In this document: positions 33,751 through 43,374 of the stretch, piece after piece
Position numbering within the stretch: position 1 is the stretch's first letter
Layout: every line of letters begins with the position of its first letter
Assembly (NCBI RefSeq): GCF_030143245.1
Contig: NZ_JARJNS010000003.1
Coordinates: 434,001-498,000, forward strand
Origin: Rhabdaerophilum sp. SD176
Lineage (GTDB): Bacteria; Pseudomonadota; Alphaproteobacteria; Rhizobiales; Beijerinckiaceae
DNA length: 64,000 nt
Reading direction: 5' to 3'
Program-made: the position numbers and the translations under genes
Notes under the pieces: model-generated
What the model was told of the DNA's origin: nothing
What the model saw: only the letters and a program-made list of their open reading frames with translations
Databases searched by the model: none

Positions 33751-34833
33751 TCAGTTCTTTGCTTGAAGGCCCGCTTCCCGGACAAGTCGGCCGTATTTCT
33801 CAAAATCGACAGCCAATTGCCGAGCAAGCGCCTCCGGAGTCCCGCCAACAGGGTCCAACGCCTGGTCCGCAAGTTTTTGGCGCAATCCCGGATCCGCTAG
33901 CGCTCGATCCACCGCGCGATTCAGACGTGCAACGATGTCCGGCGGCGTGCTGGCTGGCGCGAAGGCCGCCATCCATTGTTCGAGAACGATGTCTGAAAAG
34001 CCAAGTTCTACCAGGGTCGGAAGCTCGGGAAGAGCCTGAGAGCGGACAGCCCCAGACTGCGCGATCGCCGTGAGTGTCCCCGCCTTCACGTAGGGAAGAA
34101 TAGGGGTTGCTCCGAGCGAGCCCAGCTTGATGTGGCCGGCCGCAAGGTCATTGATGGCCGCGCCGCCACCGCGATATGGCACGTGAACAAGTTTCATGCC
34201 TGCACGCTTCGAAAGCCATTCTCCCAGAAGATGATGGCTTGTGCCGGCGCCGGCTGTCGCGAACGGCATGCCCGGTTGCTCACGCACCTTGGAGACAAGT
34301 TCGCCGAATGTCTTGACGCCGAGAGAGGGATGCGCAGCAAACACAATCGGTTGCCGGGTCAGCTGAATGATGGGCGAAAAATCCTTGAGCGGATCAAAAC
34401 TTGCTTTCGAGACATGCGGCGCACTCGCAATCGGATCACCCGAGATCAGGATAGTATATCCGTCACCATCACTCTTTGCGACCGTTGCTGCCCCGACATT
34501 GCCACCGGCGCCACCGATATTCTCGACAATGACGGATTGATTGAGTTCGCGCGAGAGCGAATCACCAACGAGCCTTGCCGTGACATCGACGGCACCCCCG
34601 GCAGGAAACGGCACAACGATGCGGATGGGCCGGGCATTCGGCCAGGTTTGCGCCATTGCGGGCAGAAGTGACGCGAGCAACATCGCAAATATCAACGACG
34701 CAAACGCGACGGCTGTCGGCCGTGTGCGGACATGGGGACGCGATGCGCGGCAAAGACATGCCAGCCGTTTTAGAGGCGGGCAATGACCTTGCAGGGACTG
34801 GCGTGAAACCTGAACTCGCAGAATCGCCGTCAT
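33751..34833 (-). CDS. TctC/Bug-family substrate-binding protein
   Basis: A 360-residue periplasmic receptor of the tripartite tricarboxylate transporter type. After a long N-terminal region with a signal sequence (LIFAMLLASLLPAMAQ) it shows the family hallmarks PIRIVVPFPAGGAVDVTAR, ENIGGAGGNVGA and HVPYRGGGAAINDL. The first 35 residues before the signal sequence look atypical, so a later start is possible. TctA and TctB membrane partners are absent, as is common for orphan Bug receptors. It precedes the sulfatase gene and faces a MarR gene across a palindromic site. Confidence 0.92.
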   Translation of the reverse strand: MTAILRVQVSRQSLQGHCPPLKRLACLCRASRPHVRTRPTAVAFASLIFAMLLASLLPAMAQTWPNARPIRIVVPFPAGGAVDVTARLVGDSLSRELNQSVIVENIGGAGGNVGAATVAKSDGDGYTILISGDPIASAPHVSKASFDPLKDFSPIIQLTRQPIVFAAHPSLGVKTFGELVSKVREQPGMPFATAGAGTSHHLLGEWLSKRAGMKLVHVPYRGGGAAINDLAAGHIKLGSLGATPILPYVKAGTLTAIAQSGAVRSQALPELPTLVELGFSDIVLEQWMAAFAPASTPPDIVARLNRAVDRALADPGLRQKLADQALDPVGGTPEALARQLAVDFEKYGRLVREAGLQAKN

Positions 34834-35720: not shown

Positions 35721-36620
35721 CTATCGCGACGGCAAGCTCGTCATGATGGACCCGATCATGATGAGGATCCCAGGGAGAAGAAGCGTTAAACCTATGGTTT
35801 CAGAGAAGGCAACATACCCGACGCCAGCCATCATCGGGAGCCGAAGAACGTCAGCTGCACAGAGCTGCAATGGACTGCCATACCGCGAAGCGCTGGCCAA
35901 TGAAGCCTGCGTCACGTAGCCCGCAGCAATCAGCGCAAAGCATGCTATCGCAATGCCAATCCAGGTTGAAAAAGTCGCATTCTGTGAGACATTCCGCACC
36001 GATTGAAACCAATCCGGATAAATAAAAAACAAAAGAATGACATATATTGGTAATTGAACAAGGTGCATCTTAAAAATTATTGCTGAAGAAGACTCCGTTT
36101 TTGCGAGATCGGCCAACATCAAGTTTGTGACTGTCAATATGCATACAGCGCTCAAAGCAACTAACAAAATATATCCGTAATCACTTGTATTGTTAAGCGC
36201 GAGCGTGATTACGATACCAAAAAACATTAAAGCCAATCCTATACGGGGGTATGTCTCCATTTTGTTCTTAAAAACAAAAATTCCTACCAACGCCGCAAAT
36301 ATCGGACCAACAAATTCAATTGTTGATACGAGCGCTACTGGCATGTTTACCAGACTCCAAACGAAAGCCAATGATCCGACAATATGCAATGCGCTCCTTG
36401 TCACTTCATGAAAGCTAAACTTCGAATTCAGTGAAATCCCACTCTTGGCCAGAACAACCCCGGCCACCAAGAGAGATCCTGCCGATCGAATTGCCACAAT
36501 TTCGATGATGTTAAAGAATTCCGACAGGTGCCGTATCGACAATGCTACTGCAATATACGCAGAAAGATATAGGAACATCCACATCAAAAACTTAGCGAAA
36601 TTGTTATTTATCCGGTCCAT
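35721..36620 (-). CDS. EamA/DMT-family transporter
   Basis: A 299-residue inner-membrane protein with about ten hydrophobic helices in two EamA halves (for example NIIEIVAIRSAGSLLVAG in the first half and YVTQASLASASRYGSP in the second). Such proteins usually export amino acids or small metabolites. The base composition is strikingly AT-rich compared with the core. It overlaps the end of the carbamoyltransferase-like gene by 13 bases, so it is translationally linked to that enzyme and may export its product. The substrate is unknown. Confidence 0.9.
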   Translation of the reverse strand: MDRINNNFAKFLMWMFLYLSAYIAVALSIRHLSEFFNIIEIVAIRSAGSLLVAGVVLAKSGISLNSKFSFHEVTRSALHIVGSLAFVWSLVNMPVALVSTIEFVGPIFAALVGIFVFKNKMETYPRIGLALMFFGIVITLALNNTSDYGYILLVALSAVCILTVTNLMLADLAKTESSSAIIFKMHLVQLPIYVILLFFIYPDWFQSVRNVSQNATFSTWIGIAIACFALIAAGYVTQASLASASRYGSPLQLCAADVLRLPMMAGVGYVAFSETIGLTLLLPGILIMIGSIMTSLPSR

Positions 36621-37612
36621 GGAGTTCCTGATAACATTCTTTCAAGTATAGCCATACGAATGGGTGTCGATAGCTTTACTTGCTGGAAATAGCCTGCGTT
36701 TGGAAGAGAATCGCATGAGGTATCCAGTTCCGAAAACCTCGGCAGCGGATTCAAAATCAAAGTGTTTGAGTTATGTTCTAGAATTTTCTTGGCTGTGATG
36801 GTGAACGGCTCCGTCTCTTGCTCTTTATCTACCGCGTCATACCCAAGAGATGCGTTAGAAAATTTGCTCATGTCCTGCATCTGGATGCTCAAAACATCGT
36901 GATCCAACGTTTCCACAACATTATGCACAACCGAGACAAGCGTGCCTAGACTGTGCAGGCGTTCCATGGCCTCCCGGACGGCAGGATTGATTGCAATTCC
37001 CGGCAGGCAGCAAAGCGTGAATCGTTGAGGCGGCCAAAGACGCAGCATCTTGACAAACGAGACGGCAAAACGAGCCTTTGTATCGCAGGAAAGGGCGATC
37101 GAAAGCTTGGAAAGATCACCCCGCATTTTGTAGATGGCGTAAATATCTATCATCGCCTGTGTTGGATGTTCGTCAGACCCGTTACCAGCATTGATGATGG
37201 GGAGATAGCTTAGCCGCGCGACTTTATACGGGAGATCCTCCAGGTGAGAGCGGACGATGATAAGGTCGCTGTAGGCCTCCACTGTCTTGATGTGATCCTC
37301 GATGGTTTCCCCAGTTGCATGGCCCATCCGACTACGATCCGGATCAAATACGTCAATTGATTGGTGCCCCAGTCTGCCCGCAGCAACCTGGAATCCGAGC
37401 CTTGTCCGTGTACTCCGCTGGTCAAACAGCGTTGCAACCATTTTGGGTCGGCGCCGGACAACATTGACAAATTGACTTTCGGCACTTTCATCGGCCAGAT
37501 TTAATTCTATCCAGTGCCTGTCGGCTCTTTCTAAAACATCACCGAGGTCAGCCTGTGAGACGGCCTCCGCACTCAGCAGGTCTTTTCCGCTAGGATAATT
37601 AGGCCTAGACAT
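36608..37612 (-). CDS. Divergent aspartate-carbamoyltransferase-like enzyme
   Basis: A 334-residue member of the ATCase/OTCase family closest in layout to E. coli PyrB. The carbamoyl-phosphate sites are kept: STRTRLGF near residue 66, HPTQAMIDI near 149, and NPLPRFSELD in the C-terminal part. By eye, the loop that carries the catalytic Lys in PyrB (LGKKGET) reads MGHATGET, and the aspartate-binding Arg/Gln segment (MTRVQKER) reads IQMQDMSK. It may therefore carbamoylate another amine or be a non-catalytic relative. No PyrI partner is visible. It precedes and overlaps an exporter gene. The base composition is low-GC. Confidence 0.88.
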   Translation of the reverse strand: MSRPNYPSGKDLLSAEAVSQADLGDVLERADRHWIELNLADESAESQFVNVVRRRPKMVATLFDQRSTRTRLGFQVAAGRLGHQSIDVFDPDRSRMGHATGETIEDHIKTVEAYSDLIIVRSHLEDLPYKVARLSYLPIINAGNGSDEHPTQAMIDIYAIYKMRGDLSKLSIALSCDTKARFAVSFVKMLRLWPPQRFTLCCLPGIAINPAVREAMERLHSLGTLVSVVHNVVETLDHDVLSIQMQDMSKFSNASLGYDAVDKEQETEPFTITAKKILEHNSNTLILNPLPRFSELDTSCDSLPNAGYFQQVKLSTPIRMAILERMLSGTPWTG

Positions 37613-37653: not shown

Positions 37654-39654
37654 TTACGCGATACCCGACGATTTCTTGGCTGAGGATTCGGTCTGATCGA
37701 CCACAGCTTGTTTTTGCGCCTTCTGCTTTTTATTGATCCTTACGTCAATGACATCGCGGAGTGCAATATCACTCATTGGCTTCGCATATACGTACCCTTG
37801 AATGCCATGAACGCTGTATTGCTGAATAACCGCCAATTGCTCATCGGTTTCAATACCTTCGACGATAATCATGAGATCGAGGTCATGGGCCAGCTGCGTA
37901 ATTGCACTCATCAAAGCCCTTGCCCTTTGTGATGTTTCAATTTCGCGGCAAAATGACTTATCGATCTTCAAGATATTGATCGGAAGCCATGCCAAATAAC
38001 TCAATGATGAAAAACCAGTGCCAAAATCATCGAGCGCAATTCTGACGCCCATGCCTCGAAGCTTCTTGAGTGTATCAACAATAAATGTTTGTTCACCGAC
38101 GATTGTTGACTCTGTCACCTCGATAATAAAGCGATTGGCGGGCAGTCCTGATTTCGCCAGCGCCGCACTGATGATAGCGGCGATATCGTGATCTTGGTCG
38201 AACTGGAACGGAGATACGTTGACGCTAATTTTCACCGAGCGCTCGAAGGAAGCAGCCGTGCGCGCCGCCTCCTCTAGCGCCCAGGCGCCGAGCACCTTGA
38301 TCAATCCGGTTCTCTCGGCAACCGGAATAAATTCTGCGGGACTTACCGATCCGCGGGTTGGGTGCGCCCAACGCATCAAGGCTTCGACATGGGTCACCGT
38401 CCCAGATCTCGGGTTGTAGATCGGCTGATAGGCCAACCAAAACTGGCCTTGCCGGATGCCTTCGCGCATTTCCGCTTCCAGCGCCACCTGGTCATTATAG
38501 GCCTTGCTCAGAGCGGGTGAGTAACTGACACAGCGGTTCCGCCCATCCGATTTTGCCTTGTAGAGCGCGATATCGACGCGCTTCATGGCTTCTTCAGACG
38601 GGAGACCTCCCTCGGCTTCAACAATTCCGATGCTGACCGTTACAGTCAAGGTGCGATTGGCCACGAGCCGTTGAACTTGTGCGAGGTGGAGGAGTCTTGT
38701 TGCCAACTGGCTGGCAGACTGGGCGTGACCCGCGGTCGCGATCATGAATTCGTCCCCGCCCATGCGCGCCGCTACGCCAGATCGGCCAATCAGTTCCGCA
38801 ATATCTGCACTCAACGAGCATATCAGGGCATCGCCAACATCATGCCCATATGTATCGTTGATGTTTTTGAAATTATCGATATCGAGTGATAGCAGTGTGT
38901 ATTTGTTATCCGAATCCGAAAGACGTTTTAGCTCGATAACAAAGCCACGACGATTGAATAGATTAGTCAAGGGATCGAGATTGACCATCTTCACAAGTTC
39001 TAAAAGTGTCTTTTGACGCGAGACAAAGACTTTATATATGACAGTGGCGCTTGAGAACGTCAGAATGACAGTCAACAACACTGTCAACCCAATAAGGATG
39101 TACGTAGGCTTGCCGGTCGCAATCAGCACAAAAACGAAGGGCAGCGAGACAGCCAACGTTTGAACACGTGTTATAACGGGTCGGGAGGTGTTCCGCCCCG
39201 AAAGGCCCGCCAGATAGCCGATCGTTTGCGCTATGGCCAGCACGGATACCGGTTGAGATTCATAATACGCGATCGCATAGGCACCAAATGAGCCGATGGT
39301 CGCCGCAGTGGTCCATGCGCCAAACATTGCCATGTATTCAAAATTATGAATTCTTATAGTTTGAAAATTGTATGTTTTAGATAATCTATATAGGTAGTGA
39401 GAATAAAGCCGAATGGCACCGATTGCCGTCATTATTGCCGCGAACACATAAAAATTTTTATCGTGACCAGAAATTATGCCAGCCCCGCCCATGACGACCG
39501 CGACGGTAGTTGCTCCGATGATTATAGGCCCGGGAGTACCGTACAGCGCATCAATCAATTCTCGATGGATTGACGCAGCGTCATCCTCTTGAATGCGAAC
39601 TTGCCCCACTTGCTTACCTACCCTCTGCAAGCACTCGCGCTTGACGTGAACCAT
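37654..39654 (-). CDS. Membrane-bound GGDEF-EAL protein (cyclic di-GMP turnover)
   Basis: A 666-residue sensor-type enzyme. About six transmembrane helices occupy residues 40-205. The GGDEF domain (about 215-375) has an intact MGGDEF active site, while the upstream RxxD inhibitory site is not evident. The EAL domain (about 385-640) keeps EALMRW, the metal ligand region DDFGTGFSSLSYL, LKIDKSF and VEGIET, so both activities are possible. The start region before the first helix is unusually long. It lies just downstream of a 577-base gap and is not obviously operonic with the carbamoyltransferase gene 41 bases beyond its stop. The composition is AT-rich. Confidence 0.95.
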   Translation of the reverse strand: MVHVKRECLQRVGKQVGQVRIQEDDAASIHRELIDALYGTPGPIIIGATTVAVVMGGAGIISGHDKNFYVFAAIMTAIGAIRLYSHYLYRLSKTYNFQTIRIHNFEYMAMFGAWTTAATIGSFGAYAIAYYESQPVSVLAIAQTIGYLAGLSGRNTSRPVITRVQTLAVSLPFVFVLIATGKPTYILIGLTVLLTVILTFSSATVIYKVFVSRQKTLLELVKMVNLDPLTNLFNRRGFVIELKRLSDSDNKYTLLSLDIDNFKNINDTYGHDVGDALICSLSADIAELIGRSGVAARMGGDEFMIATAGHAQSASQLATRLLHLAQVQRLVANRTLTVTVSIGIVEAEGGLPSEEAMKRVDIALYKAKSDGRNRCVSYSPALSKAYNDQVALEAEMREGIRQGQFWLAYQPIYNPRSGTVTHVEALMRWAHPTRGSVSPAEFIPVAERTGLIKVLGAWALEEAARTAASFERSVKISVNVSPFQFDQDHDIAAIISAALAKSGLPANRFIIEVTESTIVGEQTFIVDTLKKLRGMGVRIALDDFGTGFSSLSYLAWLPINILKIDKSFCREIETSQRARALMSAITQLAHDLDLMIIVEGIETDEQLAVIQQYSVHGIQGYVYAKPMSDIALRDVIDVRINKKQKAQKQAVVDQTESSAKKSSGIA

Positions 39655-40231: not shown

Positions 40232-41134
40232 TCATGCACCCCTTGGCCAGCTTTCACGCAAGATATCGCGGAACCTCGTTGCAGCAGGAGACAAGCGTCC
40301 ATTGCGCCGCTCTACGATGCCAATGGTTCTGACAACTGTCGGATTGTTGATCGGCTTCGTCACAATGGTCGGATGCCCATCCCTGGGAGTCGCGAGCCGA
40401 GGCAGAACTGATATTCCAACCCCTTCCTCAACAAGGCCGAGGGATGTCGAGAGATGATGCACTTCATAGAACCAGTTGAGACGCACATCGAGATTGGCAA
40501 GCGCATTGTCGAGGATCGTCCGGTTGCCCGAGTGACGGCTGACACCGATCAGCAGATGATCCGCAAGATCACGCCACTGAACATCATGCCTTCCCGCGAG
40601 GGGATGATCGCGGCGGCAGGCCAGCACAAACGGATCCTCCATCAACGGTGTGAACGTCAGATCGGGGTCGGCTGAGCCCAGCATGCTGATTCCGAACTCG
40701 CTTTCGCCGGTTGCAACGCTCCGGAGGCCCTCGCTGGCCGAAAGATCCAGTATCCGAATCCGGATATGCTGATGCAGCGCGTGGAACTTCTTGATGACCT
40801 GCGGCAGAAAATAGAAGGCTGCTGTCGGCACGCAGGCGATCGTTACCTGCCCATGCTGTAGTTTTCCGGTGGAGTTCATCGAAAGGACGGAAGTCTCCAG
40901 CTCGTCGAGCAGGCGGATGAGGAGAGGCTGCAGATCGCGTCCGGCCGCTGTAGGGGCAATGCGCCTTGTGGTTCGCTCAAGGAGGGGCGCACCGATCACT
41001 GTCTCAAGCTGCTTGATGCGCCGGCTAAGCGCCGGTTGTGACAGATTCAGCTGTTCGGCAGCCCGGTGGAAGCTTCCGCTGTCCAGCACCGCCAGAAAGG
41101 CCCTGAGGTCGAGCAATTCGCAATTGATCCGCAT
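40232..41134 (-). CDS. LysR-family transcriptional regulator
   Basis: A 300-residue regulator. The N-terminal winged HTH (about residues 5-65) contains FHRAAEQLNLSQPALSRRIKQLE, and the rest is the two-lobed periplasmic-binding-like effector domain. It is divergent from the tautomerase-TctC pair with 130 bases between the starts, the standard arrangement for a LysR activator of a small catabolic operon. The effector is likely a dicarboxylic acid related to the tautomerase substrate, which is inference. Confidence 0.93.
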   Translation of the reverse strand: MRINCELLDLRAFLAVLDSGSFHRAAEQLNLSQPALSRRIKQLETVIGAPLLERTTRRIAPTAAGRDLQPLLIRLLDELETSVLSMNSTGKLQHGQVTIACVPTAAFYFLPQVIKKFHALHQHIRIRILDLSASEGLRSVATGESEFGISMLGSADPDLTFTPLMEDPFVLACRRDHPLAGRHDVQWRDLADHLLIGVSRHSGNRTILDNALANLDVRLNWFYEVHHLSTSLGLVEEGVGISVLPRLATPRDGHPTIVTKPINNPTVVRTIGIVERRNGRLSPAATRFRDILRESWPRGA

Positions 41135-41207
41135 ATTGGAATAATATCGTCAATTTTTGCATTTAACAAGCGCTAACGGCTGCGCTACGTTCTGAATTCT
41201 GGATAAA

Positions 41208-41222
41208 TCATCGAAATTGATG
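41208..41222. promoter_or_regulatory. Possible LysR box (T-N11-A with CATC/GATG dyad)
   Basis: TCATCGAAATTGATG contains a T-N11-A pattern around the dyad CATC-N6-GATG. It lies in the gap between the divergent LysR and tautomerase genes, 43 bases before the tautomerase start. The match is short, so this is a weak call. Confidence 0.4.
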
Positions 41223-41264
41223 CTTATCCTGCAATAAAATTTGTCTCCCACGCAGGAGTGACAG

Positions 41265-42374
41265 ATGGAGACCCGGCAGATCCCCTGCATGCTGATGCGT
41301 GGTGGTACATCGCGTGGCCCATTCTTTCTCGCCGGTGATCTGCCTGCCGATCGCGACACACGGGACGCGGCTCTCATTTCCGCGATGGGCGCGGGCCATG
41401 ATTTGCAAATCGATGGCATCGGCGGCGGCAGTCCGCTCACGAGCAAGGTGGCGATAGTCTCGCGCTCGAACCGCCCCAATGCCGATGTCGATTATCTCTT
41501 CGCGCAGGTGACGGTAGCGGGACGCCGGGTCGATACCTCGCCAAATTGTGGCAATATGCTTAGCGGTGTGGGCCCTTTCGCCATTGAGAAGGGACTTGTG
41601 CAGGCCTCCTCTGGCGAAACATACGTTCGTATTTTCAATGTAAATACCGGCAAGCGGATCGAAGCCCTGATCCAGACCCCTGGAGGCCGTGTCACCTATG
41701 AGGGTGATTGCCGTATCGACGGGGTGCCCGATGCTGCTGCACCCATCCGACTTACATTTCTGGATTCTGCAGGCGCAAAGACAGGCAAACTGTTGCCATC
41801 GGGCGCGGCCATTGACGTGATCGGCGGGGTCTCTTGCACCTTGATCGATGCTGCCATGCCGCTGATGATCGTTCGTGCCGAAGATCTCGGAAAGACCGGA
41901 CAGGAGAGCCCGGCTGACCTTGATGCGGATCGCGATTTCATGGCGCGCCTTGAGGCTCTCCGCATCCAGGCTGGCCTTCGAATGGGTCTGGGCGATGTGC
42001 GCTCGCTCGTGGTTCCGAAGCCGGTTCTGATTTCAGCACCAGTCAAAGGCGGAACCCTGGCCGTACGTTATTTCATGCCGCATGCCACGCATAAGGCACT
42101 TGCTGTCACAGGTGCGGTAGGCATTGCCACGGCCTGCGCGACCGCCGGCACCATCGCCAATGCCCTTGTTCCTCATGCTGGAGTTGGAACTCCAATCCGC
42201 ATCGAACACCCGGCAGGATCCATAGAGCTGACCCTCAACCAACGGTGCGCGGATGGCCCAATCGAGGCTTCGCTTATCCGCACAGCCCGAAAAATCTTCG
42301 ACGGCTCCGTCTTTGTCCGGTTGCCAGAAACGGCTCTGCAGGACGTTGCCACACCCTTCGCCAAATCCGCCTGA
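41265..42374 (+). CDS. 4-oxalomesaconate tautomerase / PrpF-type isomerase
   Basis: A 369-residue protein of the PrpF fold (two diaminopimelate-epimerase-like halves). Family features are MLMRGGTSRGPFF at residues 6-18, DGIGGGSPLTSKVAIV near 50, SPNCGNMLSGVGPFAIE near 91 with the active-site Cys, and RVTYEGDCRIDGVPD. Relatives isomerise aconitate, methylitaconate or 4-oxalomesaconate in gallate, protocatechuate or propionate catabolism; the substrate here cannot be fixed. A CAGGAG site precedes the ATG. It is the first gene of a two-gene operon with a TctC-type receptor. Confidence 0.88.
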   Translation: METRQIPCMLMRGGTSRGPFFLAGDLPADRDTRDAALISAMGAGHDLQIDGIGGGSPLTSKVAIVSRSNRPNADVDYLFAQVTVAGRRVDTSPNCGNMLSGVGPFAIEKGLVQASSGETYVRIFNVNTGKRIEALIQTPGGRVTYEGDCRIDGVPDAAAPIRLTFLDSAGAKTGKLLPSGAAIDVIGGVSCTLIDAAMPLMIVRAEDLGKTGQESPADLDADRDFMARLEALRIQAGLRMGLGDVRSLVVPKPVLISAPVKGGTLAVRYFMPHATHKALAVTGAVGIATACATAGTIANALVPHAGVGTPIRIEHPAGSIELTLNQRCADGPIEASLIRTARKIFDGSVFVRLPETALQDVATPFAKSA

Positions 42375-42396
42375 CAACAAGATTAGGGAGAAAACC

Positions 42397-43374
42397 GTGA
42401 TCATCAATCGCCGCCAAATGACCCTTGGCCTTGCCGCTTCCACTCTTGGCCTCGCCTCAGCCCGTGCTCAGCAGCAGTATCCGTCCAAGCCCATCAAGCT
42501 GATCGTGCCCTACGCTGCTGGCGGTGGCACAGACACGATCGCCCGTGCCGTTGCACAGGGAATCGGAGAGGCAATCGGCCAGACGATGATTGTCGAGAAC
42601 AACGGCGCTGCGGGGGGCAATATCGCGACACAACAGGCGGCCTTCGCCGAGAAGGACGGCTACACGGTTCTTATGGCCAATCAGGGCCCGATGGTTGTCA
42701 ATCCCCATCTCTTCAAGTCGATGAAAGTGGATACGCTCAAGGCGTTCGACCCGGTTACGCTGCTGGCCTCTGCGCCGCTGGTCGTCGTTGTGCCCAAAGA
42801 TTCGAAATTCAAGACCCTTCAGGAACTGATTGCGTTTGGCAGGGCCAATACCGGGAAGCTCAATTACGGTTCGGCCGGCAACGGTTCCGCGAGCCATCTT
42901 GCGACAATGCTGCTGGAAAGAGCTTCGGGATTGAACGCAATCCACATTCCCTACCGCGGTGCCGGGCCGGCCATCAGCGACCTCATCTCGGCCAAGACGG
43001 ATTTCATGGTCACCACCTTCCCCTCGGTGCTGGGGCAGATCCAAGGTGGCTTGCTTCGGGCCCTTGCCGAGACCTCGAAGAAGCGCTCGCCGATAGCGCC
43101 CGAGATTCCTGCGGTGGCCGAACTGGGCTGGCCGGATTACGAAGCCGGCGCCTGGTATGGGTTCGTTGTTCCTACGGGTACGCCAAAACCGATTATCGAA
43201 CGGCTTCGGGCAGCAACATTGGAAGCTCTGAAATCTCCGCTCCTCATGGATCGCCTCGCAAAAGATGGCGCAACGCCAATTGGCAATTCACCCGAAGAAT
43301 TCGGGACGATGATGGCCAATGAGCACAAGCGTTGGGGCGAACTCATCGCCACTGCCGGGCTGAAACATGATTGA
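42397..43374 (+). CDS. TctC/Bug-family substrate-binding protein
   Basis: A 325-residue periplasmic receptor. The signal peptide is Tat-like in spacing (NRRQMTLGLAASTLGLASARAQ). The mature part has PIKLIVPYAAGGGTDTIARA, ENNGAAGGNIATQQAA and HIPYRGAGPAISDL, all family hallmarks. The GTG at 42397 follows AGGGAG. It probably binds the carboxylic acid that the preceding tautomerase acts on. No TctA/TctB genes are nearby, so it must use membrane partners encoded elsewhere or act as a sensor. Confidence 0.92.
   Translation: MIINRRQMTLGLAASTLGLASARAQQQYPSKPIKLIVPYAAGGGTDTIARAVAQGIGEAIGQTMIVENNGAAGGNIATQQAAFAEKDGYTVLMANQGPMVVNPHLFKSMKVDTLKAFDPVTLLASAPLVVVVPKDSKFKTLQELIAFGRANTGKLNYGSAGNGSASHLATMLLERASGLNAIHIPYRGAGPAISDLISAKTDFMVTTFPSVLGQIQGGLLRALAETSKKRSPIAPEIPAVAELGWPDYEAGAWYGFVVPTGTPKPIIERLRAATLEALKSPLLMDRLAKDGATPIGNSPEEFGTMMANEHKRWGELIATAGLKHD

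Follow-up and report, generated by a model that had tools for sequence, protein, structure and literature searches.

A diverged transcarbamylase linked to a membrane GGDEF-EAL protein suggests a chemical signalling unit in soil bacteria

A gene for a transcarbamylase-like enzyme adjoins, on the same strand, a gene for a membrane GGDEF-EAL protein in all 40 genomes in which relatives of the enzyme were scored; the GGDEF-EAL gene lies upstream in 38 of them and downstream, beyond an EamA transporter gene, in two, and the enzyme was never seen without this partner. The cluster of enzyme and GGDEF-EAL protein, usually accompanied by the exporter, suggests that soil bacteria have a chemical signalling unit not yet described. 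The 40 genomes comprise 6 of 17 from the genus of the window (the whole stretch of DNA analysed, 64,000 nucleotides), 29 of 67 from genus g12, all three from g105 and two of four from g11; thirteen named relatives (loci L001-L013), which overlap with the genomes of this main survey, stand outside the count. An earlier note on this DNA had proposed a two-gene unit that makes and exports a carbamoylated compound. It stopped one gene short, leaving out the GGDEF-EAL gene at 37654-39654, and its unit has to be redrawn: the GGDEF-EAL protein is the constant partner (40/40), and a full-length EamA neighbour was not found in nine of the 40 genomes.

In the open reading frame list of the window, three minus-strand genes form one run, in the order GGDEF-EAL protein, transcarbamylase-like enzyme and EamA transporter, with the following features:

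37654-39654, minus strand: gene for the GGDEF-EAL membrane protein, first in the unit (666 aa; Pfam EAL 6.2e-68, GGDEF 3.7e-36)
39010-39654, minus strand: N-terminal six-helix membrane domain, a putative sensor (residues 1-215; AlphaFold2 model; strong matches nearly confined to enzyme carriers)
38533-38982, minus strand: GGDEF domain (residues 225-374; Pfam)
37777-38472, minus strand: EAL domain (residues 395-626; Pfam)
36608-37612, minus strand: transcarbamylase gene, new subfamily (334 aa; Pfam OTCace_N 4.8e-30, OTCace 2.9e-09)
37403-37414, minus strand: STRT carbamoyl-phosphate motif (enzyme residues 67-70; kept in 40/40)
37301-37345, minus strand: 80s loop (enzyme residues 90-104; S80 becomes R95 and K84 becomes T100 in the PyrB alignment)
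37157-37168, minus strand: HPTQ motif (enzyme residues 149-152; H134 and Q137 equivalents kept in 40/40)
36863-36895, minus strand: 240s loop (enzyme residues 240-250; R229 becomes M245 and Q231 becomes D247 in the PyrB alignment)
36737-36748, minus strand: PLPR motif (enzyme residues 289-292; P266, L267 and P268 kept in 40/40)
36608-36620, minus strand: 13-base overlap of the enzyme 3' end with the start of the EamA gene (from the open reading frame coordinates)
35721-36620, minus strand: gene for an EamA (DMT) family transporter, the usual but not constant third gene (299 aa; Pfam EamA)

The placement of the enzyme and EamA genes and their overlap, both described in the earlier note, are borne out by these coordinates. 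The end of the GGDEF-EAL gene is separated from the start of the enzyme gene by 41 bases on the same strand, and the identical 13-base overlap of enzyme and EamA genes recurs in 18 of the 31 EamA-bearing genomes, the window included. Translational coupling of enzyme and EamA through this overlap is likely, and the three genes probably form one transcription unit with a presumed shared transcript. No Rfam RNA, riboswitches included, reached its gathering score between 33500 and 42500 of the window, and neither the promoter scan (8 hits, 5.5 expected) nor the terminator scan (6 hits, 5.3 expected) gave a clear excess. The genes are AT-rich, as had been noticed, with a GC content of 0.46 at 36-38 kb against about 0.57-0.69 in most of the window, and of 0.503 in the enzyme gene against 0.617 for the whole window. 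The flanks (40232-43374 and 33751-34833) encode a LysR regulator, a 4-oxalomesaconate tautomerase and a TctC-type binding protein, and a second TctC-type protein was recognised by eye at 42253-43374; this is a catabolic neighbourhood, the link of which to the three-gene unit is not evident.

Linkage of the enzyme to EamA, on which the two-gene proposal had leaned, is recurrent but incomplete: a full-length EamA gene lies beside the enzyme in 31 of 40 genomes and is not found or incomplete in nine, a count that leaves out L018 and L020 (short matches inside the enzyme gene) and L114 (a 43-residue piece), and for five of the nine (L090-L093 and L107) the view reached about 1.5 kb past the enzyme. 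The window's own EamA protein scores 30.5 bits (5.1e-07) against a Pfam gathering score of 28.2. With nine of 40 genomes lacking a full-length neighbour, the exporter is ruled out as the defining partner. In a comparison of 26 loci by mechanical open reading frame calls, no other family was found next to these genes in all subfamilies.

The six-helix domain of the GGDEF-EAL protein follows the enzyme closely. In genus g12 it was found at E < 1e-30 in all 29 enzyme carriers and in none of 38 other genomes; at 1e-5, some match is present in 59 of the 67 genomes, the weak ones being paralogues at about 21-29% identity. In the 29 carriers the enzyme and the domain are encoded on one contig, with their lower coordinates 1,932-2,420 bases apart. 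The domain is likewise present in six of six enzyme carriers and one of 11 other genomes of the window's genus, and, at E < 1e-70 in a family sample of 199, in eight of eight carriers and one of 191 others (G009); the Fisher P values for these co-occurrences ignore relatedness. Distances between enzymes and distances between receptors are correlated over 19 loci (r = 0.94, and 0.92 for the plain GGDEF-EAL part alone), which shows co-inheritance rather than contact. Over evolution, the enzyme and its c-di-GMP partner have been passed on together.

Two genomes carry the GGDEF-EAL protein in another setting. In G009 (L121, C1:266001-284000) it is intact, and the enzyme has suffered a large internal deletion, its remnants matching residues 1-23 and 316-330 of the enzyme of G011 (L048), the setting of which is similar. 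In G197, a second GGDEF-EAL copy of the same type (L122, C81:1-14000) has no enzyme within the 14 kb read, and at the other locus of this genome (L050) EamA appears only as a 43-residue match. This asymmetry, with receptors lacking an enzyme, suits a receptor that can outlive its synthase, but it also suits a partner with other inputs.

The earlier note had read the enzyme as keeping its carbamoyl-phosphate motifs while its acceptor loops were altered, and an alignment to PyrB (aspartate carbamoyltransferase, ATCase) agrees on both points in the relatives from the 40 genomes (positions are given in E. coli PyrB numbering). The window enzyme carries STRTR, HPTQ and PLPR, and the donor-site residues S52, T53, R54, T55, R105, H134, Q137, P266, L267 and P268, as well as R167, are kept in 40/40 relatives, whereas K84, R229 and Q231 are each found in 0/40. 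In the window enzyme S80 is replaced by R, K84 by T, R229 by M and Q231 by D; across the relatives, Arg stands at the S80 position in all 40, position 84 is T in 28, Q in six, N in four and S in two, and position 231 is D in 34. The segment corresponding to R229x231 reads MxD, TxD, TxK, TxR or PxD, in a register anchored at a nearby Asp, such that a shift by one residue alters the letters and still yields no RxQ. In ATCases, the aspartate β-carboxylate is bound by R229 and Q231 and the α-carboxylate by R167 and K84, and the RxQ of the 240s loop is described as the ATCase signature (PMC4581275). The residue pattern fits an enzyme with a working donor site and an acceptor other than aspartate, although the step from residues to substrate is ours. 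Because residue 231 differs between subfamilies (D, K or R), a single acceptor common to all of them is not certain.

The AlphaFold2 model of the enzyme (16 sequences, pLDDT 83.4) superimposes over most of its length on solved ATCases, with a best Z of 33.7 (rmsd 2.0 over 289 residues); confidence is lowest in segments that include residues 92-99 and 253-260, at or close to the two acceptor loops. Besides this fold, the enzyme shares with PyrB the STRT, HP[TS]Q and PLP motifs, R105 and R167; it differs in the absence of K84, R229 and Q231 and the change of S80 to R in all 40 relatives, in forming a clade of its own and in being linked to a c-di-GMP gene. The best-scoring NCBIfam models are those for PyrB, but the enzyme falls below every listed cut-off (TIGR00670, 167.7 vs 236.95 bits; NF002032, 162.1 vs 263). 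Purifying selection acts on the enzyme (omega 0.05-0.10 in six pairs); these values, together with 40 open copies, rule out a decaying pseudogene.

How the enzyme relates to the rest of the superfamily was addressed with a tree of 43 rows, drawn from PyrB, OTC and the relatives, with PTCase, AOTCase, SOTCase, UGTCase, DPTCase and DBTCase outside its scope. The 21 relatives form a single clade (support 99/98) that contains no PyrB or OTC row, a separation from the rows sampled that suits the earlier note's doubts about PyrB; the clade lies within the ATCase branch, where its grouping with the PyrBs of the window's genus is weakly supported (81/65) and the program warned of long branches meeting. 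Two rows labelled PyrB (L069 and L072) group with OTC, probably because another open reading frame was picked for them. The three pseudo-ATCase groups defined by motif (PMC4016543), which include ureidoglycine transcarbamylase (UGTCase), are likewise ATCase-branch paralogues with a kept donor site and a changed acceptor motif (PMC4016543; PMC4581275). In contrast to the HPLA, H[ST]LP and HSLP motifs listed for groups 1-3 at positions 265-268 in Table 1 of PMC4016543 (numbering of that paper), the relatives have NPLP (35/40) or HPLP (5/40), and in place of AIA/AIS/SIA, GX[SC] and VXP at positions 230-232 they have the MxD to PxD series given above. In addition, UGTCase retains the K84 equivalent (PMC4581275, Table 1), which is lost here, and the neighbours described for pseudo-ATCases in these papers are mostly purine or hydantoin genes, not a c-di-GMP gene. 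By these published motifs the enzyme family is set apart and, at the level of sequence, appears to fit none of the three groups.

Other assignments were tried and rejected. The OTCase motifs HCLP and DxxxSMG are absent from the 40 relatives (which have NPLP or HPLP and no SMG), and TIGR00658 gives 81.4 against 280.85; the putrescine transcarbamylase model TIGR04384 gives 47.3 against a cut-off of 500 bits, matching residues 56-164 only; and the YgeW-type insert of the extended 120s loop, typical of the knotted group (YgeW, AOTCase and SOTCase), is absent from 12 aligned relatives. Ornithine, putrescine and knotted transcarbamylases are therefore ruled out on motifs and cut-offs. An ordinary PyrB, or a duplicate of it, is ruled out by the residues, the cut-offs and the separate PyrB of the host, the tree alone being insufficient for this. 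The host genome has two further carbamoyltransferases, one grouping with OTC and the other with the PyrBs of the genus, and its own PyrB has K84, R229 and Q231. Since a separate PyrB and OTC are present, pyrimidine synthesis is probably not the job of the enzyme, and to that extent the note's claim of a role unrelated to it stands, as a probability. Neither of the two results that the note had named as refuting its proposal came about, even though the position of the clade among the PyrBs is weakly supported.

In the GGDEF-EAL protein, the motif residues of both domains vary little or not at all across 19 aligned relatives (one reads SGDEF), and both catalytic domains look intact from their sequences. 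The gene evolves with omega values of 0.04-0.16 in six pairs. A Pfam scan found no PAS domain in the protein, and for the six-helix domain of the window member no Pfam family was found at E<=0.1. The AlphaFold2 model of this domain (19 sequences, pLDDT 88.4) and hydropathy give six membrane-spanning helices flanked by a leading helix and a linker helix. Foldseek returned no match in the PDB at E<=0.001, and the top match with VIA-align is the diguanylate cyclase ImcA (PDB 8wcn; Z 10.8, rmsd 4.0, 187 residues, 8% identity), which is within the chance range for helical bundles and too weak to claim kinship. Both proteins combine a membrane domain of six helices with a cyclase domain, but the partner of Pseudomonas aeruginosa ImcA is the CHASE4 protein IsmP and not a transcarbamylase (PMC10904736). 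Weaker relatives of the six-helix domain occur in 49 further genomes of the family sample, mostly in open frames of about 650-890 aa, and the enzyme was not found in these genomes; the domain belongs to a wider family, without a Pfam entry for the window member.

Scoring up to five candidates per genome, so that a member may have been overlooked, we found the enzyme in five of 397 genomes sampled from the order, and none outside the order in 398 genomes from the phylum and 385 from the class. In the phylum sample 53 of 398 genomes pass E 1e-50, but only G000 and G005 exceed 550 bits, the other 51, at 173-204 bits, being read as ordinary PyrB; the two positive genomes of the class sample (2/385) were both among the relatives already collected. 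The thirteen named relatives from another collection, ten of them recorded as Bosea, are 70-73% identical; the type strain B. thiooxidans DSM 9653 (L008) is an example of a Bosea with the unit. The window enzyme shares 72% identity with its counterpart in G173 (genus g12) and only about 51% with those of G003 and G012, which belong to its own genus, whereas the PyrBs of G003 and G012 are 89% identical to that of the window genome. The comparison suggests transfer between genera. In G002 (C24; L047, L123 and L126) the unit lies on a contig of 40,643 bases whose ends are identical over 127 bases and which has a RepC-like open reading frame recognised by eye; this contig is probably a circular plasmid. 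Among plasmid proteins, 22 records matched, with identities of 30-33%; the annotation is aspartate carbamoyltransferase or pyrB in 14, and, judged on the level of identity alone, none was taken as a member of the subfamily. Among these, 12 Staphylococcus plasmid matches (H3-H12, H14 and H15) are about 31% identical, 11 of the 12 being annotated as aspartate carbamoyltransferase, and ten of the plasmids, of 8-26 kb, are from S. epidermidis.

The model that we tentatively prefer, while giving it somewhat less than an even chance, is one in which the product of a neofunctionalised transcarbamylase sets c-di-GMP through the GGDEF-EAL partner, in a unit of synthase, receptor and, usually, exporter. 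Carbamoyl phosphate would bind at the intact ATCase donor site, and the kept Arg167 would probably hold the α-carboxylate of the acceptor, which, because Arg229, Gln231 and Lys84 are lost, is expected to be an amine other than aspartate, in all likelihood an amino acid. Its carbamoylated form would be the signal. Where present, EamA would take it out of the cytoplasm, although dedicated export appears not to be essential, since a full-length EamA gene was not found beside the enzyme in 9/40 genomes, and the six-helix membrane domain would sense it and shift the balance of c-di-GMP synthesis and breakdown. A signal looks likelier than a simple exported metabolite as the product of the enzyme because the partner present in every case is the membrane GGDEF-EAL protein, whereas a full-length EamA was not always found. 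The anatomy of the unit, its linkage, the selection on it and its residue changes are observed, and from them we infer the enzyme activity, the acceptor, the direction of transport and the sensing. The survival of the GGDEF-EAL protein without the enzyme in G009, and as the second copy in G197, counts against a signal unit.

The closest working parallel is, by analogy, RpfF/RpfR of Burkholderia, in which the gene for RpfF, which synthesises a signal, and that for its GGDEF-EAL receptor RpfR are transcribed convergently as a pair and the product of RpfF activates the phosphodiesterase of RpfR (PMC6361424). In both cases a gene for a small-molecule enzyme adjoins a gene for a dual GGDEF-EAL protein (here in 40/40). 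The Burkholderia system has a fatty-acid signal, convergent genes and PAS sensing, whereas the present one has a transcarbamylase, co-directional genes, a six-helix membrane domain and usually EamA; it would work in an RpfF/RpfR-like manner, but with another enzyme, with a receptor in the membrane and with an exporter. E. coli strains mutated in the pyrimidine pathway, carB and pyrB mutants among them, showed altered curli and cellulose, with no measurable difference in c-di-GMP reported for carB mutants (PMC3281075), a weak hint of a link. A bolder extension, which we regard as doubtful, is mobile, self-contained cell-cell signalling, with an N-carbamoylated amino acid (ureido acid) as autoinducer, an ATCase-derived synthase, export by EamA, a six-helix GGDEF-EAL receptor and receptor-only genomes as listeners. 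In the literature searched (titles and abstract openings), we recognised no description of the linkage between enzyme and GGDEF-EAL protein among the matches listed, nor was carbamoylated amino-acid signal chemistry of the proposed kind found among them.

The main rival to a diffusible signal is direct contact, in which the enzyme, loaded with carbamoyl phosphate and an amino acid, is a cytosolic sensor that binds the GGDEF-EAL protein and alters its output, catalysis being secondary and EamA handling an unrelated or feeding metabolite. We hold this to be possible but rather less than probable. It accounts for the constancy of the pair (40/40, with the exporter in 31/40) and has precedents in RpfR, which binds its synthase RpfF (PMC6361424), and in the six-transmembrane diguanylate cyclase ImcA, which is inhibited by its partner IsmP (PMC10904736) and also heads the structures that match the membrane domain (Z 10.8). 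That match, however, is weak for a helical bundle, about one Z above an unrelated row, all 40 relatives retain the donor-site residues, which have a catalytic role as well, and the overlap of enzyme and exporter genes in 18 genomes suggests a product to move.

The logic may also run in reverse, the unit making and exporting a carbamoylated metabolite, as the earlier note proposed, and the GGDEF-EAL protein, responding to an outside cue, acting as a local regulator of production or export through c-di-GMP. The altered acceptor loops beside an intact donor site and the recurrence of EamA (31/40) agree with this. We nevertheless consider it unlikely: the regulator is found more consistently than the exporter, it persists where the enzyme is deleted (G009), and Pfam, at E<=0.001, gave no c-di-GMP-binding domain for either the enzyme or EamA.

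A catabolic use, in which the enzyme runs backwards to turn a ureido compound imported by EamA into carbamoyl phosphate while the GGDEF-EAL protein reports nutrient status, is to our minds improbable, EamA proteins being mostly known as exporters. Within the superfamily, several relatives have known or proposed catabolic roles (PMC4581275; PMC4016543), but the catabolic ones described in these papers adjoin carbamate kinase, purine or hydantoin genes, and here no further family recurs in every subfamily, in a comparison made by gene family without a name search for carbamate kinase. That the enzyme is a surplus PyrB which has diverged but still acts as an aspartate carbamoyltransferase, next to unrelated genes by chance, is scarcely credible: the best models are PyrB models, the fold is that of ATCase and the clade lies within the ATCase branch, but K84, R229 and Q231 occur in 0/40, the score is under every listed NCBIfam PyrB cut-off, the clade is separate (99/98), the host has its own PyrB and the neighbour is conserved in 40/40.

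To our knowledge, the ligands of many membrane GGDEF-EAL proteins are not known, and a receptor paired with what appears to be its own synthase offers a way to find the ligand from the product of the enzyme. According to a review, the transcarbamylase superfamily still contains clades whose function is not known (PMC4581275). If the synthase-receptor reading is true, it would add a function to this superfamily and would lead directly to c-di-GMP from carbamoyl phosphate, where the arginine and pyrimidine pathways part.
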